Positions 5,181-64,000 of a stretch of DNA of 64,000 nt are shown here, piece after piece. The stretch is from Bacteroidota bacterium (GTDB taxonomy: Bacteria; Bacteroidota; Bacteroidia; B-17B0; Aurantibacillaceae), in the NCBI GenBank assembly GCA_021323535.1, contig JAJONO010000020.1, positions 1 through 64,000 of the forward strand. Direction: 5' to 3'. The notes under the pieces were generated by a model. The model was not told the origin of the DNA. It did not search any database and worked only from the letters and a program-made list of their open reading frames with translations. The position numbers and the translations under genes are program-made. Within the stretch, counting starts at the first letter, position 1; every line of letters starts with the position of its first letter.

Positions 5181-5185
5181 TTGTA

Positions 5186-6917: not shown

Positions 6918-7042
6918 CAGACAATGAAGTTAATCCATAAAAAAGCGTGCCTCCTGCAAGCCTTCAAGAGTTATTCATAGCCTCCTGTTAATGGCTTGGT
7001 ACGAACTTTGAAGCATTAGTTATGGAACCAAACATCGAAACC

Positions 7043-7294: not shown

Positions 7295-7308
7295 ACCATT
7301 ATTAATTT

Positions 7309-7482: not shown

Positions 7483-7536
7483 AGCACTCACCATAAAAAA
7501 TATCATCCTGACGAAGGAAGAATGACCGTTTCGCTT

Positions 7537-9198
7537 TTAAGATTGTAATATCGGAAAGTATATCCGGAACGTTGCTCCTACTCCTGGCTCTCCCTCTGCA
7601 GTAATAAATCCATCGTGATTCTCTACAATTTTTTTACAGATGGCAAGGCCAATTCCTGTTCCTGAATATTCGGCTTTCCCATGCAGGCGGTGAAAGATTT
7701 CGAAAATTTTTTCGGCATACTCATTTTTAAAACCAATACCATTGTCTTTAACAGAAATTCTGTGAAAATCGTAGGTGTTGTCGGGTTTATTCAGCTCAGA
7801 AGCTTTAACAATTTCCGAACTTATTTCTACTATTGCCTGTTCACTTTGTTTCCTGTATTTGATCGAGTTGCCAATCACATTCTCAAACAATTGCTGTAGA
7901 AGAAAAGGAACCGCAAATAATTCGGGAAGATTTCCGGATTTAATTATTAACCGCTTATCTGAGATCATATCTTCATACGAATGGCTTATATGATCTATGA
8001 TTGTATTAAGATTCGTTTTTTGTTTTGAATCGATATTCGTTTGCGTGCGCGAAAAAGCCAGAAGATCCTGTATGAGTTTCTGCATGCGCATGGTCGACGA
8101 ATCTATTTTATCGAGATACATTTTTCCATCCTCTGAAAGGTTTTTATATTCCTTCTCCATTAAAATACTTGAGAAAGTCTTCACTTTTCTTAAAGGCTCC
8201 TGTAAATCGTGACTTGCCGCGTAGCTAAATGATGTGAGCTCTTCGTTGCTTCTTTTCAGCTCCTTGTTTTTCTGATCGAGCGAATGATTCAGGCGCGCCA
8301 GATCCTGAAGAATATAATGCCTGTCTGTTATATCCATGATAGTTCCTCTGAGTAAAAAAGGTTTTCCATCCTTTTTAATCAATTTGCCCCGCGACCAGAT
8401 TATCTTTTGTTTCCCATTAACAATGTAACGGTATTCGCAATCGTAATCTCCCTGATCATGTAATGCTTTGTCAATAGCGAGTGCCAGTTTAACTTTATCT
8501 TCGGGATGAACAAAGGTGAAAAAATCATCAAGATTCGTGGTTCTTTCCATTTCAAAAATTCTGTACATCTGCGGCGAATAATCCGAGTTTCCATTGCTGG
8601 TCAGATCCCATTCAAAACTTCCGATATTGGCGATCTCCTGAGCCTCTAATAATTTTTCCTTATGCTTTGTTAACTGGGCATTAACGTCGCTTAGTTTTTC
8701 CTGGCTGATACTAATGTACGTCTGAAAACCTTTCGACTGAGCGGCTAACGAATATTCTTCAATTTCCTTTACAAGCTCTATCGTGATTTTTACATCTGAA
8801 GTATAATCCGGAATAAATTCATAGAAGCCATTCTTCCTTAAATACGTGGAAAGCGTAAGATCGTCTACAACCAACTGGTCGCTTGTTATGTTAGGCAACT
8901 GATTAGTGACCCATTTCTGCATCGATCTTTCAATCTGATCATCCAGTTTATTGTTGATAGCGTAATTTAAAAATTCAGTATAACCCGGAACCGACATTTG
9001 AACAAGTTGCTCTTCGGTGTATTTACTGAGATCAAATAATTTAAGAAGAGGAACCTCTTTAGAAATAGCGAGACGAAGCTGAACCCTCACAAAATCTTCA
9101 AGTTTGTTTTTAAGGATATATTCTGCAAAAAGAGGAAGATGGATGAAATGTAGCTTCTCCCTTACAGGATCTGAATTTATCTTGCCGGAAGTTTCCAT
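7537..9198 (-). CDS. PAS-domain sensor histidine kinase
   Basis: A two-component sensor of 553 residues from ATG 9198; a TTG-initiated extension to 9249 is possible. Residues 1-170 are helical and look like an RsbR/globin-like or unknown sensory module. A PAS_3-type PAS domain covers about 190-295 (IGSFEWDL, FVHPEDK, GTIMDITDR), then a short coiled coil. HisKA follows with SYAASHDLQEPLRKV, the phosphoacceptor His near 330, and a HATPase_c domain with N box (ENVIGNSIKYR), G1 (VKDNGIGF), F box (IFEIFHRLHG) and G2 (GTGIGLAICKKIV). No transmembrane segment is seen, so it senses a cytosolic signal. No response regulator is adjacent (orphan kinase). Confidence 0.88.
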   Translation of the reverse strand: METSGKINSDPVREKLHFIHLPLFAEYILKNKLEDFVRVQLRLAISKEVPLLKLFDLSKYTEEQLVQMSVPGYTEFLNYAINNKLDDQIERSMQKWVTNQLPNITSDQLVVDDLTLSTYLRKNGFYEFIPDYTSDVKITIELVKEIEEYSLAAQSKGFQTYISISQEKLSDVNAQLTKHKEKLLEAQEIANIGSFEWDLTSNGNSDYSPQMYRIFEMERTTNLDDFFTFVHPEDKVKLALAIDKALHDQGDYDCEYRYIVNGKQKIIWSRGKLIKKDGKPFLLRGTIMDITDRHYILQDLARLNHSLDQKNKELKRSNEELTSFSYAASHDLQEPLRKVKTFSSILMEKEYKNLSEDGKMYLDKIDSSTMRMQKLIQDLLAFSRTQTNIDSKQKTNLNTIIDHISHSYEDMISDKRLIIKSGNLPELFAVPFLLQQLFENVIGNSIKYRKQSEQAIVEISSEIVKASELNKPDNTYDFHRISVKDNGIGFKNEYAEKIFEIFHRLHGKAEYSGTGIGLAICKKIVENHDGFITAEGEPGVGATFRIYFPILQS

Positions 9199-9268
9199 GG
9201 TTGCAGCTAAGATAATATTTTCCGGATAATTTAAAAATACGTGGGACAAATATTCCCCGTTGACGACC

Positions 9269-9622
9269 TTACTTATAATAATACTTTTTTAAAAGTGAAT
9301 TAACAATAGGAAACGTTATCAGCTTTTCCTTGAAAACAAGGATAACGGTCGCGATCAATCCATAAAAAAGAGCCACACATAAAAATCCGATCGAGTTCCT
9401 GCCCGTTATTTCCCCAATTACAAATCCGGCAGAAATACTCAAAAACAACAGAAGGAAAAAACCAAGAAAAGCAATTGCAATACCGACAATGAGGCCGGAA
9501 GCTACCGATCCGGCTTTATCAATCGCTTTCAGCTTAATAACATCAATACGATTGTCAATGTAATCTTCAACATCCTTTTTTATTTCTTCAACGTTTTCTT
9601 TCATTGATCCGTTTTCTTCCAT
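9269..9622 (-). CDS. Phage holin-family (Holin-X like) membrane protein
   Basis: From ATG 9622 the protein has 117 residues: an acidic amphipathic N-terminus (KENVEEIKKDVEDYIDNRID), then two membrane helices (SGLIVGIAIAFLGFFLLLFL and IGFLCVALFYGLIATVILVF) and a basic tail. This is the Phage_holin_3_6 (Actinobacterial Holin-X) layout, a family that in free-living bacteria is usually not phage-linked. The track-length ORF to 9721 is rejected because it crosses the divergent BrkB gene. The BrkB gene starts 61 bases away, and the two envelope proteins may share a control region. Confidence 0.7.
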   Translation of the reverse strand: MEENGSMKENVEEIKKDVEDYIDNRIDVIKLKAIDKAGSVASGLIVGIAIAFLGFFLLLFLSISAGFVIGEITGRNSIGFLCVALFYGLIATVILVFKEKLITFPIVNSLLKKYYYK

Positions 9623-9683
9623 GGCATACGATTTTAGTCTCTTAATAAAAAATATATGCCTGTAATACTTAACAGATCCCACT

Positions 9684-11063
9684 ATGAAACAAAAAATAAA
9701 AGACCTCGGAACTATTTTCAAGAAAACATTTCAAGGCTGGAACGCCGATGATCCTTTTCGTCAAAGTGCCGTTATAGCGTATTACGCTATTTTTTCATTA
9801 CCGGCCCTGCTTGTTCTGCTGGTTAACATAACAGGATTTTTCTTTGAGAAAGATGCTATCAGTGGTGAAATTTCACGCCAGATTGAAGGTGTGATGGGAC
9901 CAGAAACCGCGAATACGGTGGAACGCATTGTGGAAAAAGCAAGTGAAACAAAATCAGGGGTCCTTGCTGGGGCCATTGCCATAATTACTATTTTATTCGG
10001 AGCCACCGGGGTATTTATTCAGTTGCAGAAAACACTTAATCAGATTTGGGATGTAAAGGAAAAACCTGATCTCGGCTTTATGAAGCAGCTAAAAATGAGA
10101 TTGTTTTCTTTCGGACTAATTGTATCCATAGGGTTTTTATTACTGATATCACTTGCAGTGAGTACAGCGCTTGCCGCATTGAGTCATTATTTTGAAGGAA
10201 TTTTTCCTGAAGCCATTGCTTATTTATTTTATGCTCTTGAATTTGTGGTTTCATTATCCGTGATAAGTGTTCTCTTCGCGCTTATGTTTAAATTATTACC
10301 TGACGCAAAAATAAAATGGAGAAATGTGTGGATAGGTTCTGTGCTCACCGGTTTGCTTTTCATTGCAGGTAAATACGGATTGAGTCTTTATTTTGGAAAA
10401 GCGGAGCCCGCCTCTGTATACGGCGCTGCAGGTTCAGTTATCCTAATATTATTGTGGGTTTCTTATTCCTCCATGATTGTTTTTTTTGGAGCTGAATTTA
10501 CCAAACAATACGCGGTTCATTACGGAATGAAAATTTCACCGAATAAAGACGCTGTTAAAATGGAGGATGAAACAAATACGAACGAAAAAGATATTTCGGA
10601 GAAAGAACATAAAGAAGCAATATTAAAAGAAAATCATGTTACTTTTTATGAGAATGGAAATTCAAAACAAAAGGATCATGAACCTAAAAAACACGAGCCG
10701 GTGAAATACGAAAGCAACGGCGTGGGCAAACACAAAGAAAATCCTGTTGAGATGGAGATTCAGAAACGCACCGCCAGGAAAACAAAGATCAACAGCATTA
10801 AAGATCTGAAAGATGAAATTACCAGGAAAGAAATTCTCTTAAAGGTAAACGCCCAAGACATTAAAGACGATCTGAAACCTTCTCATCTTTTAAGCGGGCT
10901 GCTACCGCGACAGCTTCGTGTAAAACAATTCCGTTCAGGAAAATGGAACATGGACGAATACATGCGGGGTGTTGCGCGAAATTATATTTCGACCCATGAA
11001 ACCGAAAAAACCTTTCTTGATAAGATCAGGGATCTGCTTCACCTTAACAATGGAAAGGATTGA
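9684..11063 (+). CDS. YihY/BrkB family inner-membrane protein with long charged C-terminal extension
   Basis: The protein has 459 residues. Residues 1-275 carry the YihY/virulence factor BrkB domain: about six membrane segments, with AVIAYYAIFSLPALLVLLVN, LFGATGVFIQLQKTLNQIW, YGAAGSVILILLWVSYS and VFFGAEFTK. Members were once called RNase BN; their true role is unclear. Residues 280-380 are extremely rich in Lys and Glu and likely unstructured. Residues 385-459 form a second small basic module. The extension is unlike the second paralog in this window (21310-22632), whose tail is a winged-helix-like domain. The gene is divergent from the holin-like gene. Confidence 0.88.
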   Translation: MKQKIKDLGTIFKKTFQGWNADDPFRQSAVIAYYAIFSLPALLVLLVNITGFFFEKDAISGEISRQIEGVMGPETANTVERIVEKASETKSGVLAGAIAIITILFGATGVFIQLQKTLNQIWDVKEKPDLGFMKQLKMRLFSFGLIVSIGFLLLISLAVSTALAALSHYFEGIFPEAIAYLFYALEFVVSLSVISVLFALMFKLLPDAKIKWRNVWIGSVLTGLLFIAGKYGLSLYFGKAEPASVYGAAGSVILILLWVSYSSMIVFFGAEFTKQYAVHYGMKISPNKDAVKMEDETNTNEKDISEKEHKEAILKENHVTFYENGNSKQKDHEPKKHEPVKYESNGVGKHKENPVEMEIQKRTARKTKINSIKDLKDEITRKEILLKVNAQDIKDDLKPSHLLSGLLPRQLRVKQFRSGKWNMDEYMRGVARNYISTHETEKTFLDKIRDLLHLNNGKD

Positions 11064-11072
11064 TTGTTCTGG

Positions 11073-12443
11073 TTATTTCTTCCTTCTTGTAAAGTTTCCT
11101 TTTCCTTCGCTCTTTAACTGCTTATAATTTGAACGAAGTCTTACAAACCAGAAAATACGCTCCTCTTCATAAAAATCATTGATCTCGGTTTTAAATTGTT
11201 TGAAGTGATTATAGAATCCGAAGAACACCGACACTGATTTATCGCCATTCTTTTCTTCCGTTTTATGGTAGAATGGCAATACACTTTTCTCGCGGTGACC
11301 ATCCACTTTTACATTCGCAACTATCAGGTGAAGGAAACGATGCTCAAAATCTCCGTTCTCGTAACGCTTTGTGTAAAACGCCCTCCAGAGAAAACTGTTG
11401 GATGTGGAAACTCCCTCAATCCTGTCGAGCTTGTATAAATATGCGCTGAGAATAAACGTTTTTCTTTCCTTGCTTTTGAATGAATAAAACACAGGTTGTA
11501 TCGAAAACATTTTAGAAGTGTCTGTTTTTGCATACCACACAATCGGCGCAAATCTGAATTTTCTGGTATTACCATCCTTTAATCGCTCGCAGATGGGCCA
11601 CAGGAAAGATGTTTTTGAATAATCGGGACGCGATGTGTTTCTTAACAGGAAAAGTAAAGCTGAGAAATGTTTTTCGTCGCCGGTTCTCCTGTAATTAAAT
11701 ACAGGGAATAAGAACGCGTTCGTTTCCTGTTTTGAATGAAAACGTCCGAACAATGGCGTGATCATTAAATGCTGTTTATCGCTGTTAACTCCTTTTCCGA
11801 AAGAGAATAACGGGAAGAAGGTAAACGATTTATATGCCGTATCCCTTACTCTATAAATTAACGGGAAGAGAATATCTTTCTTCCTGTATTTGTTATGAAC
11901 GGAATAGAATAGCGGGAAGAAAAAACGCTTGGTGATGGTATCATCCCTTAAAAATTCTTTCCTGCTGACATAAAGAGGAAACAAGGTGGTGGCTGCCTGG
12001 GTTTTGTTCTTCACTTTCCAGAATAATGGCGTTACCATTAAATGCCCTGTTGAGTCGGCTCTTTTACCATAAGAGAATAATGGGAAGAAGGTAAAGCTCC
12101 TTCTTTCTTTGTTTTTTAAACTATACACAAGAGGAAAGAAGATATGATTGTTTTCTTCACTGCTTTTCTTTGCCCAGTATAGCGGAAAGAATACGCGTGT
12201 AGTAACAGTATCATAAAGACGATAATCTTTTTTGCTCCAGTAAAGCGGAAACAGCGTGGTTCTTATCCCATTTTCGTTTTTATTTCTCCAGAATAATGGC
12301 GTTACAACTAAATGACTTCTTCGTCCATCATTTGTTCCTCCGTAAGAAAACAGCGGGAAAAACGTGAACGAGTGTTTGAATTTATTTTTATGACCAAACG
12401 CGATCGGGAAGAGTACTGTATTAACGTTGTCTTTATTTTTCAC
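11073..12443 (-). pseudogene. C-terminal part of FPLYW-repeat protein, cut off by frameshift
   Basis: The 456 residues continue the repeat pattern of the gene at 12467-15775: HLVVTPLFW, TTLFPLYWSKK, FFPLYWAKKS, IFFPLVYS, SFTFFPLFSYG. Residues about 240-456 are a non-repetitive end, still strand-rich, finishing with a basic tail (NFTRRKK). There is no signal peptide. The only start-like codon near the 5' end is a GTG at 12443. Removing one 17-bp copy of the duplication at 12520-12553 joins this frame exactly to the upstream ORF, making a single 1561-residue protein. It therefore reads as the orphaned end of a broken gene, unless GTG initiation or frameshifting rescues it. Confidence 0.8.
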
Positions 12444-12466
12444 GCGCCAGAATAATGGCGTTACAA

Positions 12467-15400
12467 CTAAATGACTCCTGCTAGAATCTTTTCTTGCTCC
12501 ATAAGAAAATAAAGGGAAGAATGTGAACGAATGCCTAATGTGAACGAATGCCTTTCCTTGTTTTTGAAATTAAACACCAGTGGAAACAACACTGTAGAAC
12601 TTTTATGCTCCCAGGTATTGCTCGAATGCCAATATATCGGAAATAACACGGTTCGTTTCGAGGTGTCCTGATTATGTTTTGTGACCGTGTTCCAGAAAAG
12701 AGGGAACAATACATTTTTAGTTGTGGTTGGTGTTTTCACATGCCAGTAAAATGGGGTTACTGCATAATACTCTCTGTGTTTGTTTTTTCCATGAGAGAAT
12801 AACGGGAAAACAGTAAATAACTCACGTTTCGGATTTTTATAGCTGAACACGAGAGGAAATAGAACCGTGTTATGCTCATCCTTGCTTCGTTTTGTCCATA
12901 CAATCGGAAATATACCTTCTCTTCTTATTGTATCGTTTTTCAGGAATTCATCATGCCTCCAGTAAAGCGGGAAGAACATTCTTGTGCGTTTGTTTCCATT
13001 GCGTATCTGCCAGTACAATGGCGTAATTGCAAGATGTTCGAAGGTTGAATCTTTTGATTTGCCTTTTGAAAAGAAAGGGAAGAACGTAAAAGATTTGTAA
13101 AACATTCCATTCAGGTTATAGACAAGTGGTGTTATGATCTGATTATGGACCGTTTTATCCTTATAACTAAAGTATAATGGAATCAGGAGTTTCCAGGTGG
13201 ACGTGTCGCTCAACCGTTCCTGTTTGCTCCAGTAAAGAGGAAACAAAACTTCCCAGGTTTCCCAGTCTCGTTTTACTTTCCAATACAAAGGTGTTACCAT
13301 TAAAGTAGATTCTTTACCATCGGTTGTTGAGCTTTTTGAATACAATGGAAAAAATGTAAACGACTTTCTTTCTTTGTCGTTATAGGTCCATATCAGAGGG
13401 AAAATGGTCAATCTGCTTCTTGAACTATCTTTAAAGCTGTAAATAAGCGGGAAGAATATTTTATTTTCCTCATTTTTTCTTTTAAGTGTCCAGTAAAATG
13501 GAAACAAAGCTTCTCTCCTCACAGTATCACTGCTGTAAATATGTTTTGAATTCATGTAAAGAGGAAACAATACGTTGGTGGAGCCAAATTTGTTACTGAT
13601 TCTCCAGAAAAAAGGAGTTACAGCAAGATGAGCAAAAGTTGAATCTTTTCTTTGCCCCTTAGAGAACAGCGGAAAAACAGTTAAAGATTTGTATTCTTTA
13701 TTTTCCAGGCTCCATACAAAAGGAAAAAATACTTTATTGTCGTGATCTTTACTTCTCGAGGTCCAATAAAAAGGAAACAGGACTTCCCTGTGAATCGTAT
13801 CGTGTTTTTTATAGTGTGTAGTGCTCCAGTAAATCGGAAATAACACCGTTGATCTGCCATCGTTTCTTTTCACGTTCCAGAAAAACGGAGTAATGGCAAG
13901 ATGTCGCATACTGGAATCGGTTCTGTGGCCGAATGAGAACAAAGGAAAGAACGTGAACGACTGCCTGTATTTATCTTTGTGACTGAAAACAAAAGGGAAG
14001 ATCACCTGTTTATCATATCCTCTGCTTTGTCTCACCCAATAAATCGGAAATAATGTTTTTTTGACTATGGTATCGTTGGCCAGGTATTCTTTACTATCCC
14101 AATAGATTGGAAACAGAACATGACGTACTTCGTCTCTGGTCTTGGTTCTCCAGAACAAAGGTGTTACCATTAAATGACTGCGACTGGAATCGGCTTTATA
14201 TCCATAAGAGAAAATCGGGAAAATAGTGAGCGAGGTTCTGTAATCATCCTTGAACTGGTAAACGATCGGAAAGAAAACAGTATGATTTCTCGCGTTGCTT
14301 CTGTAGGTCCAGATGAGCGGAAATAACACATCTCTTCTCACTGTATCGGATTTATAGCGCTTTTCCTGGCTCCACCATAATGGAAACAGAACATTGGTTG
14401 TTGTATTTTTGTTTTTTACGTGCCAGAAGATGGGTGTTACAAAATGATTATGCGAAGAATCCCTGGATGTTCCATACGAAAATAACGGGAAAACTGTCAA
14501 TGAACTTCTGTAAAAATCCTTAAACCTGTAAATCAAGGGAAATAAAACAGCATGGCTTCTTTCGTTACTCCTGTAGGTCCATATCAAAGGAAATAAAATG
14601 TTTCTGCGGATGGTATCATGCAATAACCGTTTCTCTTTACTCCACCAAAGCGGAAACATTCCTCTCGACGTTGTATTTTCATCTTTCTTTTGCCAGTATA
14701 CCGGAGTTATAATGTGGCTTTTTGTGTTACTTCTCCGGGTCCATATTAAAGGAAATAAAATTTCATTATGGATTGTATCATGAATTAATCGTTTTTCATT
14801 GCTCCACCAAAGCGGAAACACTCCTCTCGAAGTTGTATTTTCATCTTTCTTTTGCCAGTAAACGGGGCTTATAAAACGGCTGTATCCTGAATTTTTTTCT
14901 TTTGTATACGTAAACAACGGGAAGAACGTGGTTGATTTCCTGTACTCGTTCTCAAAACTATACATTAACGGAAATAGTACTTTGTTATTTATGGTTCGGC
15001 TCTTTGTGCTCCAGTATAGAGGGAAAAACACATTTGTTTTAACTGTGTCGTTTTTGGTGTAAAGTGTTTTATTATAGAAGAGTGGAAAGAGCGTATTCGT
15101 TTTTTTCTCAGGTGTTTTGCGACGATCGTAAAGGAAAAGAACGTTCAGGTGTTTTTCATTGGCTCTTTTCTTTTGGTAATAGAATGGAAAGAACAGATTA
15201 GTGGTATCTTTTTTATTAGCGAAATGCCAGTAGGTAGGAAACACAACAAGCCTTTCGCGATGGAGGAGCTCGTCTTTCCTGTACCAGATAAAAAAGAAAA
15301 CATTGTTTTCAACTTTAACACCGCCCGGCGAACGACTATAACCAAACAACGAAATGTGCGGCGCCAGTTCCAGGAAATTCACCGATACTTCTTTGCCCTT

Positions 15401-55273: not shown

Positions 55274-56584
55274 TTAAATCCCCAGCTCCTTCGCGTGTCT
55301 CGAAGACTTACTTGGGTTCCAGGCATCGTCGTAAGATTTCTTGAAGAAGAATTCACTGAAGTAAGCAATGGTTCTTACAATACGGAGGTAATATCCAAAA
55401 TAAAAAACCATGCATGGAATGTAAATTAAAAAATAACTTATAGTTTCATTCTTCCTGTCTCTGAACAACGAAAAACAGATGTACTTTAAGTAATTGGAAG
55501 TTGTATAAAGCAAAATATTGAAGGGAATAATAAATCCGATCAGGGATGAAAAATTAATGATCATGTCAAGAATGTAAACCCACCATTTTAAATTGAGCAC
55601 AATGTTGTACGTAATATTCTCAAACGAAGAAACAAAGTTGGACCAGTTAAATAATTCGTTCGGATAAAAAACGTCTTTGTGTTTTCTTACCCTGAAACGA
55701 ATAATGGATTTGTCCCAGCGCAAACGTTGTTTGGTTAATTTGGCGTAATTTTTTGGAACATTCGTCTGGCAAACCGCCTCTGGTTCAAAACCAATCTTAT
55801 ATCCAAGCTTCCTTAATTTTAAAGTAATGTCGCCATCAAGACCCGGACCAATATCCCAGCCCACTACTCTATCCAGGGCGTCTTTACGAAATGCGCCGAA
55901 CGCACCCGAAATAACACGGTATAATCCCAGGTAACTGGTAGTGATCCTTCCCGCTGAAATAGTATCTGCATATTCAATAGCCTGTAAGGTGGTACATAAA
56001 CTCTCTTTATAATTTCTTACCATTACGTTTCCGCCAACGGCGCCAATGTGTTCATCAAGGTAAAATGGAATCAGTATCTTTTCGATGGCGTCATTATCGT
56101 AAGAACAGTCCGCATCGAGGTGAATAATTATTTTTCCATTCGAGTATCTGTAAGCCGTATTTGCAGCAGAAGCTTTTCCGCCACGCACTTCGTTACGAAT
56201 AAATAAATCAATAAGATGATTGCGTTCAAGGCTACGACAGATCTTTTCAGTATCATCGTCGCTCCCATCATCGACCACAATTATTTCAAAGTTGTTGTAG
56301 GTTTGTTCCCGTAATGAAGACACCAGTTTATAAATATGCTTTCCTTCATTTTTCCCAGGAACAATAATAGAGATAAGTGGCCGCTCGATGTATAATTTTC
56401 TCCTCGCTTCGTTATACAGTTCTTTTTGTCCATTACGACGGATTCTCCATAGAATTAAAACAAGAAATTCGAAAACGAAAAAACGAAGGAATTCAAAAAA
56501 AACAAAAAACCAGAAAATACGGATGAGCTTTCCGGGACCAACCTGGTAAATGTAATTGAAAAAATTATCAACGTAATCAAACAT
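55274..56584 (-). CDS. Membrane family 2 glycosyltransferase (polysaccharide synthase, PgaC/BcsA-like)
   Basis: The processive synthase has 436 residues. An N-terminal membrane segment (about 20-48) precedes the cytosolic GT-A domain: SIIVPGKNEG, IIVVDDGSDDDT, HLDADCS (DxD at 157-159), the acceptor-side Asp in GPGLDGDITLKL (about 252) and QRLRW (QxxRW, 286-290). At least three C-terminal membrane helices follow (VYILDMIINFSSLIGFIIPF, ISYFLIYIPCMVFYFGYYLR). QxxRW marks synthases that push the chain through the membrane, as in poly-GlcNAc, cellulose and hyaluronan enzymes; the sugar here is unknown. It overlaps the upstream zinc-ribbon gene by one base. Confidence 0.88.
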   Translation of the reverse strand: MFDYVDNFFNYIYQVGPGKLIRIFWFFVFFEFLRFFVFEFLVLILWRIRRNGQKELYNEARRKLYIERPLISIIVPGKNEGKHIYKLVSSLREQTYNNFEIIVVDDGSDDDTEKICRSLERNHLIDLFIRNEVRGGKASAANTAYRYSNGKIIIHLDADCSYDNDAIEKILIPFYLDEHIGAVGGNVMVRNYKESLCTTLQAIEYADTISAGRITTSYLGLYRVISGAFGAFRKDALDRVVGWDIGPGLDGDITLKLRKLGYKIGFEPEAVCQTNVPKNYAKLTKQRLRWDKSIIRFRVRKHKDVFYPNELFNWSNFVSSFENITYNIVLNLKWWVYILDMIINFSSLIGFIIPFNILLYTTSNYLKYICFSLFRDRKNETISYFLIYIPCMVFYFGYYLRIVRTIAYFSEFFFKKSYDDAWNPSKSSRHAKELGI

Positions 56585-58032
56585 TATTGATCGGCCAGCT
56601 GTTTAGTAACTTCTTTAAACTGCGACTCAAACGACTTATCAATTCTTAATCCTATCACTTTGTATTTTGTCTTCAGGATGAAATTATCGAAGTTGTTGGC
56701 GATTATATTTTCCAGCTTCTGAATGGCACGCTCTGTCATAAGTTGCGCCACAGCCAGATCCTCATCGTTAATATTCATCACAACTGTGGTGTTGTTCTGG
56801 AAAGAAATAATATCGGCAGGGGAAATATTGTCGCGTAGTATTTGAGCAATGTCTACCAATAACATCCGCTCATTGTTCTTACCAACGTTCTTATAAATTT
56901 CGTGAACGTTATCAAGAATTATCACAGCAATACAGGCCTTAAGTAATGGATTCGATTTCATTCTTTGACGCTCATAGTGCATCATGGTATTAAACGTATT
57001 AAAGTTCACCGTATTTAATACCGACTTTTCTAATTCAATTTCGCTTTCAGAAATTCCGGTGATAGCAGCATTTCTGCCCTTTTTTGTCAGTTTAAACACA
57101 TTCAGATCCTTTGCAAGAAGATATTGTACTTCCACATCGTTCTTACAATTCAGACATCTTGCTTTTACCTTGTAATCCTGGAACACTTCGTTGCAATCCA
57201 GACATTGATTAATGAGACTTGGCTTGTCATAATCCACACCTATGTGACGTAAATTCTTGGAGCATTTAGGACAAGACAAGGTTCCGTCGATCTTATTTTT
57301 AAAATCGGAGATAGGACCAATGTAACCGCAGGAGAAATGATGCACGAGATCTTCGGGTTTTAATTGAGAAGACTGGCATGAAGGGCAGGTCTCTCTCATA
57401 GAAACGTGCATTGATTTACATTGATTACACAAATACACACGGTCAAAATAATCGGGCCAGATATAATCTTCATTAAGTGCCCAGTCAAGAATATCAAGTA
57501 CCATATATTCTTCATAAGGTTCAAAATTTACAGATACCACGGGATATGTAAATCCAATAAAGGAAGTTGGATCAGGAATAGGAGCCAGTGTACGTTCTTC
57601 ACGCGTGAAAAGATAATCAAGTACTTTTTTAAATATCTGAACTTCGAATGACTTTCCTTCCGATATATCGAGCTGAAGAATGTGTGTCTTAATATTTTTA
57701 ATATCGTTCACTTTTTCAGGAATCTGATCAAATGAAAGAAGGGTTCCATCTGTTAATTCAGTTAATGCTTTATCATAATGATCTTTGTAGTTAATAAGAA
57801 AAACCGGCTTGAGATAAATCAGTGGATCGTTGCTTGAACGGATACGTTTTACAATGATCTTGGCATGTTCGAAATCACGCGCGTCAATAATGGCAGCATC
57901 ATGTTGCGATACAAATTCGGCCCTGAGCGGACTATCCGAATCGTAAAAATAGATGGTGTAATTGTCATAAGTGAACACGCTATCTTTAAATGATGTTCTC
58001 TTCTCTCCTATGTATTCTTTCGTTTTGTCCAT
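56584..58032 (-). CDS. TackOD1-like zinc-ribbon protein with degenerate GGDEF domain
   Basis: The 482-residue protein starts at ATG 58032 (a GTG at 58035 overlaps the previous stop). Residues 1-145 look like a decayed receiver or sensory domain. Residues 165-305 carry a series of metal-binding knuckles: CNQCK (202, 205), CPSCQ (216, 219), HHFSCGYIG (232-235), CPKCSKNLRHIGVDYDKPS (254, 257), CLDC (277, 280) and CLNC (293, 296). This order fits the TackOD1 output domain. Residues 340-482 have the GGDEF-domain fold (CIAVIILDNVHEIYKNVG), but the GGDEF loop is replaced (IISFQNNTTVVM), so no cyclase activity is expected. It may bind a nucleotide or metal and control the synthase. Confidence 0.75.
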   Translation of the reverse strand: MDKTKEYIGEKRTSFKDSVFTYDNYTIYFYDSDSPLRAEFVSQHDAAIIDARDFEHAKIIVKRIRSSNDPLIYLKPVFLINYKDHYDKALTELTDGTLLSFDQIPEKVNDIKNIKTHILQLDISEGKSFEVQIFKKVLDYLFTREERTLAPIPDPTSFIGFTYPVVSVNFEPYEEYMVLDILDWALNEDYIWPDYFDRVYLCNQCKSMHVSMRETCPSCQSSQLKPEDLVHHFSCGYIGPISDFKNKIDGTLSCPKCSKNLRHIGVDYDKPSLINQCLDCNEVFQDYKVKARCLNCKNDVEVQYLLAKDLNVFKLTKKGRNAAITGISESEIELEKSVLNTVNFNTFNTMMHYERQRMKSNPLLKACIAVIILDNVHEIYKNVGKNNERMLLVDIAQILRDNISPADIISFQNNTTVVMNINDEDLAVAQLMTERAIQKLENIIANNFDNFILKTKYKVIGLRIDKSFESQFKEVTKQLADQ

Positions 58033-58034
58033 CA

Positions 58035-59147
58035 CTAATTAAAAATAAATTTTGAAACTACAACGCCCATTTTGTGGAAAGCATACCATTTCTTTGAATC
58101 CTCTTCATTGAACGGATAAATATCAACAGCAATGGTCCTGGTTGTTGGCTCGTATTTTTTCTGAAACTCGTCCGGCATATTGTAAGTCGCGATATAAAAT
58201 CGTTTCACGTAGCCCTTGGATTTTGATCCGTCTGGAAATTCGATCGTAAATTCATCTCCGATGCGGATGTGCTGAAGATCTTCCTGGTAAAAGAAGCCTT
58301 TGATGGTTGTAGGATGCTGCTTGTGGACAGACATAACATCTTCAGATTTTAAATTTACCTCCTGTTCTTTTCTGTGGATCCTTGTAATAATACCATCCAT
58401 TGGGGTCTTAAAATATTTTAGCTCGCTAAGATATTCGTCGCTGTATATATTATAGGTAACGCCGTTATTGGATACGTACCCGCCGCCGCCATCACGTCCG
58501 TCGCGGAAAGAATTCATTGTAAGCTTTGATCCGCTTGGCAGATTCTTCATAAAGTTTTCAAGTTCTTTATTTTCAATGAAGAGTTTTGTATTCTCAGCAT
58601 TCAATCGCAGTAGTTCGTTCTGAACAAAATCCAGACGGGTTCGTGGGAGCGCATCGAGGATAACCTGGTTGGTGAGATTTTTAATTTCCGCTTCGTAACT
58701 TTTAATCACCGTATAGTTTTTGCTGATATCAATTTTATTAAGAACAATTTTTTTCTTAAGGTTATAGATCTCTTTCAAAGCCCAGTTATCCTGCGCGTTA
58801 TACGATTTAAGGTTGATACCGTTTTCAGAATTCTCGAGATCATTTTTTAATGAATTAGCGTAACAGAAAAGAGTATCTCCTGTTTTTACACTATCGCCTT
58901 CGGCTACAAAATGTTTTAAGATTCGGGCGTCTTCGGTTAAACGGATATTGATAACATCAATAAGTACCTGTCCCTGCGCTGTTACGAAAAGATTTTTAAT
59001 GCAAAGATAATAAACACCAAAAAACACAACGGCACAAAGCAGGATAAGGTAAACGATCTTGTCAATGTTTCGTTTTTTAGGCTTGTTGCTTTTTTCGTTA
59101 ACAACCCGAATTAATGATTTATTCCTTTGAAAATCTACACTCTTCAT
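58035..59147 (-). CDS. HlyD-type periplasmic membrane fusion protein
   Basis: The 370-residue protein has a cytosolic start, one membrane helix (IVYLILLCAVVFFGVYYLC, about 31-50) and a split lipoyl/biotinyl-like domain (ARILKHFVAEGDSVKTGDTL, KTPMDGIITRIHRKEQEV). A long alpha-hairpin coiled coil covers about residues 105-205, and a beta-barrel domain follows (EDLQHIRIGDEFTIEFPDGS). Such proteins bridge inner and outer membrane parts of export machines. The Gly-rich loop GRDGGGGYVSNNG is unusual. It overlaps its upstream TolC-like gene by four bases (ATGA) and ends next to the zinc-ribbon gene, so the complex is made together. Confidence 0.85.
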   Translation of the reverse strand: MKSVDFQRNKSLIRVVNEKSNKPKKRNIDKIVYLILLCAVVFFGVYYLCIKNLFVTAQGQVLIDVINIRLTEDARILKHFVAEGDSVKTGDTLFCYANSLKNDLENSENGINLKSYNAQDNWALKEIYNLKKKIVLNKIDISKNYTVIKSYEAEIKNLTNQVILDALPRTRLDFVQNELLRLNAENTKLFIENKELENFMKNLPSGSKLTMNSFRDGRDGGGGYVSNNGVTYNIYSDEYLSELKYFKTPMDGIITRIHRKEQEVNLKSEDVMSVHKQHPTTIKGFFYQEDLQHIRIGDEFTIEFPDGSKSKGYVKRFYIATYNMPDEFQKKYEPTTRTIAVDIYPFNEEDSKKWYAFHKMGVVVSKFIFN

Positions 59148-61264
59148 TTCCCACCCTCTTTGTTAACGTTTTTCTTACTCATTTTTATCAATTCGTCCAG
59201 ATCGTGATACGCCGTGTTCTTTACTCCAAGTGAAAGAAACAATGCATCCATCTGCGCCTTATTACTAAAATCATTTGTTCTTAATGCAAGAACCACTTTA
59301 TCTTTATTCAATGCTAGTTCTTCTTTTATCTTTTCTGTAATGAAAGAGGGTTTTACATTTTCGTAAGCCATAAGGTAAACATGATCGCATTTTTCAAACA
59401 GAACGCTCAGAACGTTTTCAGGATAATTCAATGGAATAGAAACACAGAGTTTGATCTTGTTTTTCTGTGTAAAGTCGTAGGTACTATTTATAAGGGCAAT
59501 ATATTTTTCAAAATATTCTTCTTTCCTGGTTTTAAAATCGCTGAACGTGTGCGGTTCAATATCAAGATGAATGGCATTGACCCTTGTAAGATTTACAGAT
59601 CTGGAAAGAGAATCTAACAGTGTTGTAATTGGACCTTCTGTAACCAGTTTGTTATTGCTGATCATTAATTCGCAGTTAAGATTGAGATTAAGATCCAGAA
59701 TACTATTAACCGATTGAAGATTATTTTTTCCACCTGAAATAACTAATGTGTTAAAATTGTTGAGCTTGCAATAATTTACAACTTCACCTGTGCTATGGTT
59801 TTTAAACACATCGCTCCAAAGGTAAACGGCGTTAATATTTTTAAAATTGTTTTTGATCGATTCTTTAGCGGGATCAAGAATCATAGGATCATAAACGTAA
59901 GGCTTGATTATTTCAGAAAGATCAACGGTGGGCAAATTTAATTTAAGGTCATTAAGAATACGATACATGTCCTGTTTCAGATCAAGCAGTTCAATCGTAA
60001 TGCTCCAGTAATCGTCGAGGACAATGTTTGCCGTTAACGGATTAAACTCAACGCTTCCGTACTGTTGTTTTACTTTTTCGTTACGCAATAATTCTTCAAA
60101 CATCTGGCGTTTCTGAAGCAGATTTGAATATTGTTTTTGCTTATAACTGAATTCATAAAGCGAATTAAGTACCACGTTTTGAGTATCCATTCCAAAATGA
60201 CTTTTGGTAATAGCCTGCAGTTCGGCGATCATCACATCTCTTTGTTTTTTGAGATTATGATTCATGGCCAACGGAACCGAAAGATTTAATCCTGCCGAAA
60301 GAAATGTTCTGTTGTTGGAAGTTGTATTGTAAACGTCGTAAAAATTATATTTAAGATTAGGCTTTAGCGACATTTCTTTCAGAAAATAATTCTGATCATT
60401 AGCCGCAAGCATATTATAATAATCTGCCGAATCTATTACCGGTGTGTTGATTATTTTTTCGGCAACTTTCTCATAGTTAATATCAAATACCGGCAACGTT
60501 GCCTTTTGAGGTTTATTGGTCTTGAATTTTGTATACAGATCGTTATATCGTTTGTAGAGATTGATCTGGTAATTGATATCGTTAAGATGCTGTGCCACCT
60601 TAATGTAATTTTCTTTAGTGATCTGGTTAAGGGAAAGAAGTTGCGCTGTAATGTCTTTAAAACTTTCTACAAAGGCCTTTCGCGCTGTAAGGATCTCGAT
60701 CTTTTCTTCGTTAAGAAGATAAATGATCATGTTATAATTGTTCTTAAGAACAAGGCTGCTGAATGCTTTTGAACGCTGGTAATTAAGTGCTTGTTGTTTG
60801 TATTTAAGTTGCTTTATTTTCGCCTTGCTTTCATAAAATCCCGAGCGAAAAATATCCCACTCTATGCCTGCCTGGAAACGCTGGCGGAACACAACCATTT
60901 CTTCGGGATCAACAATTGGAGGAGAAAAATTGTATTGATATCCTGCAATAAGATTAAAACCTTTATCTTTTTTGTAAATGAGTTGTTCCTGCGCAAGGAT
61001 CTTTTGCTGCGCCATTATTTTTTTCTGGAACGTTTCATTGAATGCTTCGTCTTTAAAATTAAAAAAATAAGGTATTTGTGATAAAGCATCGTTCGATGAA
61101 TACAAATAAGAATTGAATGATTGATTTGAATTCTCTGCCCATATAGAACTTAATTTCCGGATGTAATCCGAAACCAGGGAGTCTTTCTTTAATCCGGTTT
61201 GGGCCCGGACATTTAAAAAAATTAAGCAGAAAAACAGGGGGATTTTATAAAGTACCTTGCTCAT
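59144..61264 (-). CDS. TolC-like outer-membrane factor fused to a TIM-barrel glycosidase-like domain
   Basis: Starting at ATG 61264 gives a signal peptide (VLYKIPLFFCLIFLNVRAQ) and 706 residues; the longer frame to 61300 has none. Residues about 30-465 have TolC/OEP features: two halves with long helical hairpins (AKIKQLKYKQQALNYQRSKA, KQQYGSVEFNPLTANIVLDD) and barrel strands (FLSAGLNLSVPLAMNHNLKK). Residues 475-700 form an alternating beta/alpha domain with strands INAVYLWSD, TLVISGG, CELMISN, VNAIHLDIEPHTF, KLCVSIPLNYP, HVYLMAYENV and VVLALRTND. LDIEPH with Asp 568 and Glu 570 resembles a glycosidase site. The fusion is unusual and links export to trimming of a glycan. A weak -7 box (TAAATTCG) lies at 61277-61284. 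Confidence 0.8.
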   Translation of the reverse strand: MSKVLYKIPLFFCLIFLNVRAQTGLKKDSLVSDYIRKLSSIWAENSNQSFNSYLYSSNDALSQIPYFFNFKDEAFNETFQKKIMAQQKILAQEQLIYKKDKGFNLIAGYQYNFSPPIVDPEEMVVFRQRFQAGIEWDIFRSGFYESKAKIKQLKYKQQALNYQRSKAFSSLVLKNNYNMIIYLLNEEKIEILTARKAFVESFKDITAQLLSLNQITKENYIKVAQHLNDINYQINLYKRYNDLYTKFKTNKPQKATLPVFDINYEKVAEKIINTPVIDSADYYNMLAANDQNYFLKEMSLKPNLKYNFYDVYNTTSNNRTFLSAGLNLSVPLAMNHNLKKQRDVMIAELQAITKSHFGMDTQNVVLNSLYEFSYKQKQYSNLLQKRQMFEELLRNEKVKQQYGSVEFNPLTANIVLDDYWSITIELLDLKQDMYRILNDLKLNLPTVDLSEIIKPYVYDPMILDPAKESIKNNFKNINAVYLWSDVFKNHSTGEVVNYCKLNNFNTLVISGGKNNLQSVNSILDLNLNLNCELMISNNKLVTEGPITTLLDSLSRSVNLTRVNAIHLDIEPHTFSDFKTRKEEYFEKYIALINSTYDFTQKNKIKLCVSIPLNYPENVLSVLFEKCDHVYLMAYENVKPSFITEKIKEELALNKDKVVLALRTNDFSNKAQMDALFLSLGVKNTAYHDLDELIKMSKKNVNKEGGK

Positions 61265-61389
61265 TTTTTGGCTCGACGAATTTAGTGAAATTATCGACAT
61301 AAATCGGTTTTAGTCGGCACTTTTTGAGTCCTAAATCGTTGTTTTTTGAGGCTAAAGTGTTAAAAAGTGTGTCGAATGTTAAAAGCAGG

Positions 61390-62250
61390 TTAAGGATGGT
61401 TGACCCTGAACTTTTTTTCCTCTTTTGCTTTATGAAGCAGCTGGGTTTTATATTGCTGAATCAACTGTGTTTTACGTTGATTAATGATGAAGTTTTTAAT
61501 GTTCTGCCTTTCAAAATTAATTGGTGAAAGTCCGTTCTTTACTTTTACATCTTTTATTTTCAGGAAGTAATAATACAATTCGTCGGTGAACTCAAATACT
61601 CTTCCGTAACTGATGCTGAAATCCGGCTGATCTTTCAGTTTCGGAATTTCTTTTTTGATATCATCGAGATAGAGCCATGTACTGTCGTTGGTAAAAAAGT
61701 TCTCGGCGTATTGCACGCATAAACTCTGCAGTTGCTCTTTGTCTTTTGGTTGCGTTGCGTAAAACAGGCGCTTCATTTTTTCAAGTACCTGAACCTTTAC
61801 TGGGATTTTGTAGTAATTAACTTTTACAATGTTATCTTTTAGAATAAAATTATCGCGGTTGTTATCGTAATATTGTTGAACTTCTTCTTTGGTAATGTTT
61901 GTATCGAGGTTTGCTTCAATGATCTTTGTCTGGTAAATATGATTTACTAATGAACGTTTATAAGCTTCAACCTCACGCTGAACCTGTATTTCATCTTCAT
62001 TTAATTTACTTAAAGCTTCCTGGTAAAATAAAGCTTCCGTTGCCCAGTTGTCAATGGTCTTAGCAACCATATAAGCGCTGTCTTTTGAGTTTCCGGTCGA
62101 AATAAGATTTTCCTTTAGTTCTTCCCTGCTTAATTCATCCGTACCCGCGATTGCTACAGCTGGTGTTTTTTCTTTATCATCCGAATTTTTATCGGTGCAT
62201 GAGAATAAACTCATGAACAGACAAAAAAATATGAAAAGAAGATTTTTCAT
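61390..62250 (-). CDS. SurA/PpiC-related periplasmic chaperone lipoprotein
   Basis: The 286-residue protein has a lipoprotein signal (NLLFIFFCLFMSLFSC, Cys 17). The N-terminal helical region resembles SurA_N (ELSREELKENLISTGNSKDS, LNEDEIQVQREVEAYKRSLV) and VQQYYDNNRDNFIL is the usual linker to a parvulin domain. The second half keeps the RVFEFTDELYYYFLKIKDVK ending of parvulins. It lacks an obvious complete parvulin active site, so it may be a pure chaperone for outer-membrane proteins. It sits 126 bases upstream of the TolC-fusion gene (start codon to stop codon) on the same strand. Confidence 0.72.
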   Translation of the reverse strand: MKNLLFIFFCLFMSLFSCTDKNSDDKEKTPAVAIAGTDELSREELKENLISTGNSKDSAYMVAKTIDNWATEALFYQEALSKLNEDEIQVQREVEAYKRSLVNHIYQTKIIEANLDTNITKEEVQQYYDNNRDNFILKDNIVKVNYYKIPVKVQVLEKMKRLFYATQPKDKEQLQSLCVQYAENFFTNDSTWLYLDDIKKEIPKLKDQPDFSISYGRVFEFTDELYYYFLKIKDVKVKNGLSPINFERQNIKNFIINQRKTQLIQQYKTQLLHKAKEEKKFRVNHP

Positions 62251-62276
62251 TGGTGGTGTTCTGGTAAAATTAAGAA

Positions 62277-63263
62277 TTAGTTTTTGAATATCTCATTGGC
62301 TATTTTTTCCCAGAGAGTCTGACCAAAAAGAACGCTGAATCCAGCCTGTACGTAAGGTCCCGGAGCAATGCTGAAATTAGTTCTATATCCGTCCATTGGT
62401 GTGTATTTCAGATTCTGATAAAAAATATAACCTCCTTCTACTCTTGCAACCAATGTGTTGGTAAACTTATACCTGAGGTTTAAATAAGCCGACGCAGACG
62501 TATAGTTTAGATTAACACGTTTTGTTTTGTAATTGATGCCGGTGCGGTAACCATCTGCAGTAACGCCAAGTGTAATGAGTGTGCGTCTATCATCCCTGTA
62601 TTGAAGATTGAGTTGAACAGGAAGCGTGTAATTAAAAATAAACTTTCGCCCTATTGGCTGACTTCCTCCAAAGAAAGCTGCAGGAAGAAATAGTCCATCG
62701 CTGTACGTAGCAGCAACGCCGTAAAAGAAATTCTTTTTTAACCCTCTTAAATGTAATTGTCCAAGTAAGGCAGAGGCCCTGGCTCCCGGTGCATTTGCGG
62801 TAATATCCTGTTCAGCGAAAGACGCATTTGCTGAATAGAACATGATCCTGTATTTTCTTGTAAGGCGAACGCCAAGAATTCCGCCAGTTACATTTACAAT
62901 ATTTTTATTTGGTAACGAATCAAAACCAATATGCGTCTGTTTTACATTTACTCTGAACACTCCCATGACCTGCGACGCTTTGATACGTACACTGTTTCTA
63001 AGAATATCCTTTAATTTTAAGCTACTCAGGTCTAGCTTAATATCTGTGTCAACCCTGGTTTTAATAGGAAACGTAAACACAGCGTTAGCTTCGCCCTGCC
63101 TGAATACAGAACTCGTGTCGTTAAATTTTGAATCGAAAATATATTTTGAATCGAAACGTAAACGGGGACGAAACAATTGCTCGATTTGTTCCACTTCAAA
63201 AGTCTGCGACCATGAAATGAATCCTGAGATCAGAAGAATGAGTATGAGTGAAAACTTCTTCAT
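62277..63263 (-). CDS. Predicted outer-membrane beta-barrel protein (DUF6268-like)
   Basis: The 328-residue protein has a signal peptide (KKFSLILILLISGFISWSQ). Alternating polar and hydrophobic strands follow throughout, for example FNYTLPVQLNLQYRDDRRTL, SASAYLNLRYKFTNTLVARV and PYVQAGFSVLFG. GGSQPIGRKFIFNYTLPVQL resembles DUF6268-family barrels, but this family call is tentative. Its ATG is only 9-10 bases after the T-run of a terminator hairpin. Adjacent chaperone genes suggest it may be a client or partner. Confidence 0.65.
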   Translation of the reverse strand: MKKFSLILILLISGFISWSQTFEVEQIEQLFRPRLRFDSKYIFDSKFNDTSSVFRQGEANAVFTFPIKTRVDTDIKLDLSSLKLKDILRNSVRIKASQVMGVFRVNVKQTHIGFDSLPNKNIVNVTGGILGVRLTRKYRIMFYSANASFAEQDITANAPGARASALLGQLHLRGLKKNFFYGVAATYSDGLFLPAAFFGGSQPIGRKFIFNYTLPVQLNLQYRDDRRTLITLGVTADGYRTGINYKTKRVNLNYTSASAYLNLRYKFTNTLVARVEGGYIFYQNLKYTPMDGYRTNFSIAPGPYVQAGFSVLFGQTLWEKIANEIFKN

Positions 63264-63271
63264 TTTGTATT

Positions 63272-63303
63272 AAAAAAAACGGCGATCTTCTGATCGCCGG
63301 CTT
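63272..63303 (-). terminator. Intrinsic terminator of PpiC-like gene
   Basis: On the minus strand cggcgatc, loop agaa, gatcgccg, then TTTTTTTT. It follows the stop at 63318 and ends right before the next start codon at 63263. Confidence 0.8.
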
Positions 63304-63317
63304 TTTATTTCTTTGCA

Positions 63318-64000
63318 TTATTTTACCGTGCTCAGCACATCTTCATGTACCTTCACTTTGTATTTATCCCTTAGGTATTTTAACCATTCAGCTTCAAGGT
63401 AGTTTTGATAATCGGCTGTTGCCATTCCTCGGCATTCGTTAAGATTTTTAGGGGATTTAGGAAGTATCTTATTGACAACAATCACCAGTACTTTATTTTC
63501 CTTTTCGTCTTTAATATTAGTTGCAACAACGCCTTGTTTCCAATTGGCATCGATATTTTTGTTTTCGCCTTTCAGGTATGTAACATTCTCCAGATTAACA
63601 TTTAGCTGTGAAGTTTTGTTGAGTGCTTCAACAATCTCTTTGTCTTTTTTTCCTGCTTTCAGCATTTTACGAACTTCAGCAGCCATTTTATCATTAAGAC
63701 ATTTGTAAGTTGACACTTCAGCACGCTCACCCCACAGATAATTGTTTTTATTTTTCTCGTAGAAATCTTTTAATCCTGCAGTATCTTTCACCGCTTTGCT
63801 CCACACTTTCTGATCAGTTAAATCAAATAGAAGAATTCCATCGCGGTATTCACGGAGTAAATTTTTAAAATCAGGATATTTCTGATCGAGTAAACCATCT
63901 TCGTAACTGATCACCATTTCTTCTGACCAGGTTTTATATAATGTTCTGAGTAAATCACCCATATCTGAAGGACCTCTGAATACCATTTGCGATTCAAGAT
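63318..64000 (-). CDS. Peptidyl-prolyl isomerase/foldase of PpiC-SurA type (5' end outside window)
   Basis: The open frame continues past base 64000, so at least 226 residues of the C-terminal part are present. KNKNNYLWGERAEVSTYKCL and KMLKAGKKDKEIVEALNKT, then a final helix NYLEAEWLKYLRDKYKVKVH, match the tail of Bacteroidota SurA-like foldases, where a beta-strand pair precedes repeated parvulin modules. The parvulin active site would be upstream and cannot be judged. It is followed by a terminator and then a barrel and a second chaperone gene, an arrangement typical of outer-membrane protein folding loci. Confidence 0.75.
   Translation of the reverse strand, partial: LESQMVFRGPSDMGDLLRTLYKTWSEEMVISYEDGLLDQKYPDFKNLLREYRDGILLFDLTDQKVWSKAVKDTAGLKDFYEKNKNNYLWGERAEVSTYKCLNDKMAAEVRKMLKAGKKDKEIVEALNKTSQLNVNLENVTYLKGENKNIDANWKQGVVATNIKDEKENKVLVIVVNKILPKSPKNLNECRGMATADYQNYLEAEWLKYLRDKYKVKVHEDVLSTVK

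Follow-up and report, generated by a model that had tools for sequence, protein, structure and literature searches.

We found four open reading frames in a tight array on the minus strand at 55274-61300 of the window (the whole 64,000-nucleotide stretch of DNA that was analysed; Table 1). They probably encode a system for synthase-dependent polysaccharide secretion that has a TolC-type conduit and a built-in hydrolase and does not use c-di-GMP. The four proteins of the operon comprise only an OEP-TIM fusion, a HlyD-like protein, a TackOD1 protein and a family 2 glycosyltransferase (GT2). An earlier, sequence-only reading of this DNA had named a TolC-like factor with a TIM barrel, a HlyD-like protein, a zinc-ribbon/GGDEF-fold protein and a QxxRW glycosyltransferase, and Pfam, profile searches and structure prediction support these assignments. 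The junctions are also as given there: genes 1 and 2 overlap by 4 bases (59144/59147), the ATG of gene 3 at 58032 lies two bases past the stop at 58035 (58032/58035), and genes 3 and 4 overlap by 1 base (56584/56584). The reading frame of gene 1 is open from the ATG at 61300, and starting at the ATG at 61264 yields a good signal peptide, MSKVLYKIPLFFCLIFLNVRAQ.

Table 1. Coordinates of the four genes and of the domains and motifs of their products
Feature	Position	Strand	Basis or remark
Gene 1: OEP/TolC-like with C-terminal GH18-like TIM barrel	59144..61300	(-)	718 aa from ATG 61300; 706 aa from likelier ATG 61264
OEP/TolC-like part, about residues 36-470	59891..61195	(-)	Pfam OEP
GH18-like (beta/alpha)8 barrel, about residues 486-715	59156..59845	(-)	AlphaFold2 and structure matches
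Putative catalytic motif H578-x-D580-x-E582, end of barrel strand 4	59555..59569	(-)	alignment
M-A-Y-E motif, end of barrel strand 6, position of GH18 M-x-Y-D	59360..59371	(-)	alignment
Gene 2: HlyD/EmrA-type periplasmic adaptor (membrane fusion protein)	58035..59147	(-)	HlyD_3; hydropathy
Gene 3: cytosolic REC-like, TackOD1 and degenerate GGDEF	56584..58035	(-)	start ATG 58032 or GTG 58035
TackOD1 domain	57088..57633	(-)	PF18551 E 1.3e-51
GGDEF-fold domain, without GGDEF motif and without RxxD I-site arginine	56587..57048	(-)	structure match
Gene 4: membrane-bound processive-type family 2 glycosyltransferase	55274..56584	(-)	PF00535
QRLRW motif of synthase	55715..55729	(-)	sequence

Based on profile matches, the N-terminal part of the gene 1 product is predicted to be OEP/TolC-like, weakly so for the protein in the window and more firmly for the family. 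Pfam OEP matched residues 92-247 of the window protein below its cut-off (E 0.009, 16.3 bits vs 22; E 8e-4 in the genome search) and matched 21 of 51 gene 1 homologues, the best with an E of 1.6e-8. A single OEP-TIM protein compared by phmmer to solved structures gave nothing useful, and profiles did slightly better; hhalign of OEP against OEP also gave a poor probability. Structure was predicted for the TackOD1 protein and, within the gene 1 product, for its TIM domain.

The C-terminal region of the gene 1 product had been proposed to be a glycosidase domain, and we found that it is predicted to fold as a glycosidase-type TIM barrel with a conserved pocket. The AlphaFold2 model (pLDDT 92.5, pTM 0.89) matched GH18 chitinases and the C-terminal hydrolase domain of PgaB with Z 17-19 over about 220 residues; the match to GH153 (the PgaB C-terminal domain) is at the level of fold. 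Twelve residues of the barrel are invariant, and nearly all of them are at the C-terminal (catalytic) ends of strands. HMMER aligned H578-x-D580-x-E582 with DGIDVDWE, and M-A-Y-E with LMAYD, of a GH18 chitinase. The GH18 signature DxxDxDxE is incomplete. The barrel has xxxHxDxE: it retains the catalytic E and the third D, and other residues stand in place of the first two D. Pfam GH18 had no match in the window protein and was below its cut-off on the domain of the nearest homologue (E 6.8e-5, 22.8 bits vs 29.6). Alignment by hhalign of the TIM profile to 16 GH18 proteins of relatives was in the right register and weak (P 0.02, probability 2%).

It is possible, though in our view unlikely, that the four genes encode the proposed synthase-exporter and that the barrel, without being catalytic, binds sugar and guides the chain to the channel. 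The best structural match of the barrel is 1jnd, imaginal disc growth factor-2, which has the GH18 fold and is not known to be an enzyme, so the fold alone is no proof of activity. The missing first-motif aspartates also fit a guide, as does the one clade that retains the other operon genes and manages without the barrel, which is thus dispensable for the machine. In contrast, D580 and E582 of strand 4 and the M, Y and E of strand 6 are invariant in 53 sequences, and the D-x-E is also present in 7 further, more diverged loci. Non-catalytic chitinase-like proteins have usually lost the catalytic glutamate, whereas it is retained here.

The gene 4 product is the most conserved part of the operon (71% mean column identity, 31 sequences). 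It matched the GT2 family of Pfam (PF00535, E 2e-29) and has three hydrophobic segments, one of them N-terminal and two C-terminal. Its catalytic motifs are invariant, among them the Q, R, R and W of QRLRW in 31 homologues. Its best NCBIfam model is PgaC_IcaA, at 172 bits vs a cut-off of 422. The gene 2 product matched HlyD_3 with E 7e-4 and 20.8 bits, just below the cut-off of 22.2, and scores at the level of the family were better (HlyD_D23, 3e-7; HlyD_3, 9e-6). With this lipoyl/barrel-sandwich match and one N-terminal transmembrane helix predicted by hydropathy at about 26-57, it can be assigned to the HlyD/MFP adaptors. Its best match among solved structures is EmrA (E 4e-6).

Pumps are the usual partners of HlyD/OEP pairs, and EmrA is nearest to the adaptor among solved chains. 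Some QxxRW GT2s produce glycolipids, and ceramide glucosyltransferase is a weak match of this GT2. Perhaps the GT2 lacks processivity and its product is a glycolipid or a modified small molecule; the OEP-HlyD pair would then export this product, or some unrelated substrate, in partnership with an ABC or MFS pump that is not linked to the operon. However, no pump gene is prominent among the recurrent neighbours of the operon, the GT2 adjoins HlyD in five Proteobacteria also, and the nearest curated model of the GT2 is PgaC/IcaA. A glycosidase fold fused to the channel is hard to reconcile with a lipid or a drug. We consider this explanation quite improbable. We rejected type I protein secretion with the GT2 as an accessory glycosylation enzyme, which is hardly credible here: HlyD and TolC-like parts are its hallmarks, but there is no ABC transporter in the four-gene cluster (as the sequence-only reading had remarked) or among the conserved same-strand neighbours, and the GT2 and TackOD1 proteins are the most constant members of the operon.

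The gene 3 product does have the zinc ribbons and the GGDEF fold reported for it previously, but that description was incomplete: it consists of a REC-like region, a TackOD1 domain and a catalytically dead GGDEF domain, and has no predicted transmembrane segments. The TackOD1 match is strong (175 bits vs a cut-off of 32 for PF18551) and includes five CxxC motifs and one HxxC (CNQC, CPSC, HFSC, CPKC, CLDC and CLNC). In its published description, TackOD1 is an output domain of archaea whose function is obscure and which occurs close to type IV pilus genes of Thaumarchaeota (PMC5847659). Gene 3 shares with those proteins the REC-TackOD1 architecture and the 5 CxxC and HxxC motifs (PMC5847659), and differs from them in its linkage to a polysaccharide synthase and in the GGDEF fold that follows TackOD1.

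The GGDEF fold matched DosC with Z 17.7 (145 residues, rmsd 2.4). Compared with a canonical cyclase, it has no GG(D/E)EF catalytic motif, and NNTT or a similar sequence takes its place across the family. The I-site RxxD is SPAD in the window protein and is retained in homologues from Crocinitomix and Gammaproteobacteria, those of Plesiomonas and Photobacterium included. A search of the window genome (97% complete) gave no GGDEF match. In 16 other genomes that have the operon there was no canonical cyclase either, as the only GGDEF match was the TackOD1 protein itself, below cut-off. In the window lineage, the gene 3 product is unlikely to act as a PelD-type receptor for c-di-GMP. It does resemble PelD in being a cytosolic subunit, in its degenerate GGDEF domain and in being encoded beside a polysaccharide synthase. 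Streptococcal PelD has lost its GGDEF domain where c-di-GMP is absent (PMC7112168), and the gene 3 protein of one locus (L131) similarly has no GGDEF domain. Unlike PelD, the gene 3 product has REC-like and TackOD1 domains in place of the PelD domains, and the window protein is missing the I-site arginine. The Pel synthase is PelF, whereas the synthase here is a GT2. We rejected a true Pel assignment: the window protein has no RxxD I-site, and no cyclase was found in its genome.

The same four genes occur elsewhere in Bacteroidota, as the sequence-only reading would have it. The complete set was present, with the order kept, in 68 of 80 related loci (median intergenic distances 2.5, 2.5 and -1 bp), and most of the remaining loci were truncated by contig ends. 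Cultured strains with complete sets are Crocinitomix catalasitica, C. algicola, Brumimicrobium glaciale and B. oceani. All OEP proteins longer than 550 aa (64/64) had the OEP-TIM fusion. Identical order and fusion repeated across dozens of diverged Bacteroidota loci indicate that the locus is not a product of chance. In a search of 392 genomes, all 8 strong matches to the TIM family were in the operon; weak matches in other genomes (L134-L137) were to other large proteins, and partner genes were not adjacent.

Based on the gene content and order, the predicted folds and the conserved pocket, we infer that the four gene products form one envelope-spanning machine that exports and cleaves a polymer. 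The GT2 synthase would polymerise sugar on the cytosolic side and thread the nascent chain across the inner membrane. Its partner in the cytosol would be the REC/TackOD1/GGDEF protein, as a dedicated control or assembly subunit. The HlyD-like adaptor would bridge the synthase and a trimeric TolC-like channel, through which the polymer would pass the outer membrane. Suspended at the periplasmic end of the channel, the GH18-like barrel would cut the chain, which could keep the tunnel clear of stalled or overlong polymer or trim the polymer at release.

The nearest precedent is the proposed XcsAB-TolC route for cellulose in cyanobacteria. According to a review, an XcsA-XcsB-TolC route with the endoglucanase XcsC was proposed (Maeda 2018, via PMC12430437), and the model awaits validation. 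As we propose for the operon, that route would combine a GT2 synthase, a HlyD-like adaptor and a TolC-like channel in one exporter, plus a glycoside hydrolase (PMC12430437). Genes for all three putative exporter parts are present and linked here. In contrast, the cyanobacterial genes are scattered or only partly linked, with TolC encoded elsewhere, XcsA includes a PilZ or PCR domain, and the hydrolase stands apart as its own protein (PMC12430437); in the operon, the hydrolase-like barrel is fused to the channel, and the TackOD1 protein is an extra part. BgsA/BgsB, a rhizobial system for mixed-linkage glucan, also pairs a GT2 with a HlyD-like protein (PMC7902896, PMC9495663). In the portions of those papers available, c-di-GMP is bound by the C-terminus of the synthase, unlike in the operon, and there is no mention of a TackOD1 protein or of a linked OEP or hydrolase. 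The statement that no such system had been described was thus too strong (PMC12430437; PMC7902896, PMC9495663), although we did not find this exact set of parts in the literature searched. On a hydrolase fused to TolC, or on an operon that joins a synthase with HlyD and TolC, the cyanobacterial review was all that we found there; the literature searched included few subscription papers, and a prior description is possible.

The operon is like PgaABCD, which makes PNAG, in its PgaC-like GT2 and in that the nearest solved relatives of the barrel include the PgaB C-terminal domain. We rejected a Pga system: the GT2 score is far below the PgaC cut-off, and the linked PgaA porin, the PgaB deacetylase domain and PgaD are absent. 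A Bcs cellulose system was rejected also, as Pfam found no PilZ-bearing BcsA and no BcsB among the four proteins. The view of the locus as a hybrid of the Pga/Bcs type probably has its origin wrong, since TackOD1, GT2 and HlyD form a core cassette of their own, which is also found in Proteobacteria without the TolC fusion. The distribution beyond Bacteroidota is based on plasmid records: tblastn with the HlyD protein found no relatives among plasmids, and a profile search of plasmids did detect the adaptor, adjacent to TackOD1 and GT2. We think the chances are about even that TackOD1-GT2-HlyD forms a class of its own among polysaccharide synthase-exporters, one that spans phyla and has TackOD1 as a dedicated cytosolic subunit, and that the Bacteroidota branch has no c-di-GMP, a fossil GGDEF domain and a polymer-cutting enzyme in its TolC conduit.

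If true, this would be a new family beside the known synthase-dependent polysaccharide exporters (Bcs, Pga, Pel, alginate) and would give TackOD1 its first concrete functional setting. A synthase-HlyD-TolC conduit could be tested in one compact operon, in contrast to the scattered genes of the cyanobacterial proposal, and a glycosidase covalently joined to an outer-membrane channel would be a handle on the role of hydrolases in polymer exporters. There are two weak clues to the polymer. The GH18-type D-x-E and M-x-Y pocket hints that it contains N-acetylhexosamine. Operons of a sister clade contain an internal gene for a UDP-HexNAc dehydrogenase, which hints at a hexosaminuronic acid in the polymer of that clade.

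The four window genes that the sequence-only reading had proposed as a machine for polysaccharide synthesis and export lie on one strand, each touching or overlapping the next. They encode an OEP/TolC-like protein fused to a C-terminal TIM barrel (OEP-TIM), a HlyD adaptor, a third protein (TackOD1/GGDEF) and a family 2 glycosyltransferase synthase (GT2). For OEP-TIM, the start chosen in that reading, 61264, is favored over 61300 because a proper signal peptide is encoded from there. The OEP assignment in the window is probable, based on family matches rather than on the window protein's own score.

Features of the window operon and of related operon loci (L numbers) in other genomes
Locus	Feature	Coordinates	Strand	Remark
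Window	OEP-TIM	59144-61300	minus	
Window	HlyD	58035-59147	minus	
Window	TackOD1/GGDEF	56584-58035	minus	
Window	GT2	55274-56584	minus	
Window	EpsD-type and rotamase-type peptidyl-prolyl isomerase genes, DUF6268 outer-membrane protein gene between	61390-63998		directly upstream of operon
L122	TviB-like UDP-HexNAc 6-dehydrogenase	7255-8622		in operon, barrel-less clade
L127	same	10015-11388		same
L128	same	10715-12082		same
L129	same	8076-9443		same
L130	OEP with short tail	11894-13504		
L120	Region with receiver-like part as separate small gene and TackOD1 protein	8546-10343		
L142	REC-TackOD1 protein	6882-8792		Roseibium
L074	CotH-kinase protein	5083-7731		
L078	Putative polysaccharide deacetylase	8545-10671		near operon
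L038	OEP, SPOR-like N-terminus	5729-8212		
L121	HlyD, SPOR C-terminus	10292-11833		

The conserved unit is these four genes only. In a sample of 100 genomes (genus, family and class), 19 had the TackOD1 protein, and every TackOD1 locus on a long enough contig had the same gene order with differing flanks. A scan of named genome contigs gave 311 relatives. Among the 80 loci kept for comparison, 68 had the complete set, the median intergenic gaps were 2.5, 2.5 and -1 bp, and all 64 OEP proteins longer than 550 aa were OEP-TIM fusions. Holders of the complete set include Crocinitomix catalasitica, C. algicola, Brumimicrobium glaciale and B. oceani. Presence within the genus was patchy, which speaks for an accessory trait.

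Downstream, a gene encoding a surface-type protein converges on the window operon. In 15 related loci (L074 and 14 more), a gene for a CotH-kinase protein directly follows GT2 (mean gap ~70 bp); the one scanned had lamin-tail, CHB_HEX_C and T9SS sorting domains. The putative deacetylase of L078 also has a T9SS sorting tail. At ten loci (L062-L068, L070, L085 and L103), a second, ArnC/PgfS-like GT2 precedes the OEP gene by ~100 bp.

We found that the TIM domain is GH18-like. Its predicted structure (pLDDT 92.5) had E. coli PgaB as the top Foldseek match (E 9e-8), and a second aligner scored it at Z 17-19 against GH18 proteins and the C-terminal domain of PgaB. The Pfam GH18 model matched the nearest homologue's TIM domain, though below the model's cut-off (E 7e-5). 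In a profile search of solved chains, KGIHLDVE and VYLMAYE aligned with DGIDVDWE and INLMAYD of a GH18 chitinase, in exact register at a weak E of 0.1. In an alignment of 53 diverged domains, the least similar being 21% identical to the window domain, 12 residues were invariant: W26, N81, D111, E113, P154, M175, Y177, E178, A203, D208, H230 and D231 (numbering of the 249-residue fragment). In the predicted structure these lie at or just past the C-terminal ends of strands 1 and 3-8, the face that holds the active site in TIM-barrel enzymes. The domain is nevertheless not GH18 by motif, because it keeps the D-x-E pair and M-x-Y but not the first two aspartates of DxxDxDxE. The PgaB domain also is without the GH18 motif and nonetheless cleaves dPNAG (PMC5933820). 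All eight strong TIM-domain matches in 392 Bacteroidota genomes were inside this operon.

GT2 conservation averaged 71%, with the DG, DAD, D-G-D and Q-R-x-R-W residues invariant. The nearest NCBIfam model was PgaC, and chondroitin and hyaluronan synthases were among the best matches in solved structures. Processive synthases of this kind extrude polymer via their own membrane channel, as established for hyaluronan and cellulose synthases, and HlyD-type adaptors connect inner-membrane machines with TolC-type channels. The C-terminus of TolC is periplasmic, so the fused barrel would be expected on the periplasmic side, suspended at the mouth of the channel. The proposed polysaccharide machine is drawn from sequence and predicted structure.

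Parts of this arrangement resemble known systems. A synthase-HlyD-TolC route with a separate endoglucanase has been proposed but not validated for cyanobacterial cellulose (PMC12430437). BgsA/BgsB pair a GT2 with a HlyD-like protein, as in this operon (PMC7902896, PMC9495663).

The core extends beyond Bacteroidota. Searching plasmids by tblastn with the TackOD1 protein, we found adjacent TackOD1, GT2 and HlyD genes in Phyllobacterium, Aminobacter, Roseibium, Plesiomonas and Photobacterium. None of these plasmid loci had an OEP or TIM gene next to the three. In the GT2 tree, Bacteroidota formed a single group with the proteobacterial proteins outside. In one well-supported Bacteroidota clade the OEP lacks the barrel; this clade was placed inside the fused set with moderate support only (82-86). 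With the tree rooted on Proteobacteria, this absence reads as a loss. In one member of this clade, L130, the OEP tail matches only the barrel's end (profile 198-240), lacks the active-site middle, and is apparently an eroded enzyme domain. Four members of the clade carry a TviB-like dehydrogenase gene inside the operon, which hints at a polymer of hexosaminuronic acid there; away from the operon, the window genome encodes a copy with 60% identity. A DUF4114-type lipoprotein gene lies beside the TviB-like gene in three of the four loci tabulated. At L042, L092 and L116, a nucleotide-sugar dehydrogenase gene that clusters with the TviB-like one is found upstream, on the other strand.

The third protein is predicted to have a receiver-like N-terminal region (residues ~14-120), a TackOD1 zinc domain and a GGDEF fold. 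In several rows of the structure comparison, the receiver-like region was matched to REC domains, those of PleD and WspR. TackOD1 has been described as an output domain of archaea whose function is obscure and which some bacteria also have (PMC5847659). The GGDEF motif is lost family-wide, the I-site arginine is missing from the window protein, and RxxD is retained in gammaproteobacterial relatives. The window genome gave no GGDEF match, and 16 other operon-holding genomes gave none except the TackOD1 protein itself. At L131 this protein has no GGDEF domain at all. We infer, as the simplest reading, that the third protein once served as a c-di-GMP receptor like PelD, that its signal was lost in these Bacteroidota, and that the GGDEF domain persists as a structural element or one with altered tuning.

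The receiver-like part also varies. In L120, and similarly in L121 and L123-L126, it is encoded by a small gene of its own, and the N-terminal stretch of the TackOD1 protein is a different one; that of L120 is REC-like, with what seems to be N at the phospho-acceptor aspartate position. In L142, an apparently intact REC domain (DFHMPG) precedes TackOD1, and the gene lies beside others of the histidine-kinase and Hpt types; control of the synthase by a phosphorelay seems possible there. SPOR-type sequences occur in two other operon proteins, the OEP of L038 (judged by eye) and the HlyD of L121 (a Pfam SPOR domain).
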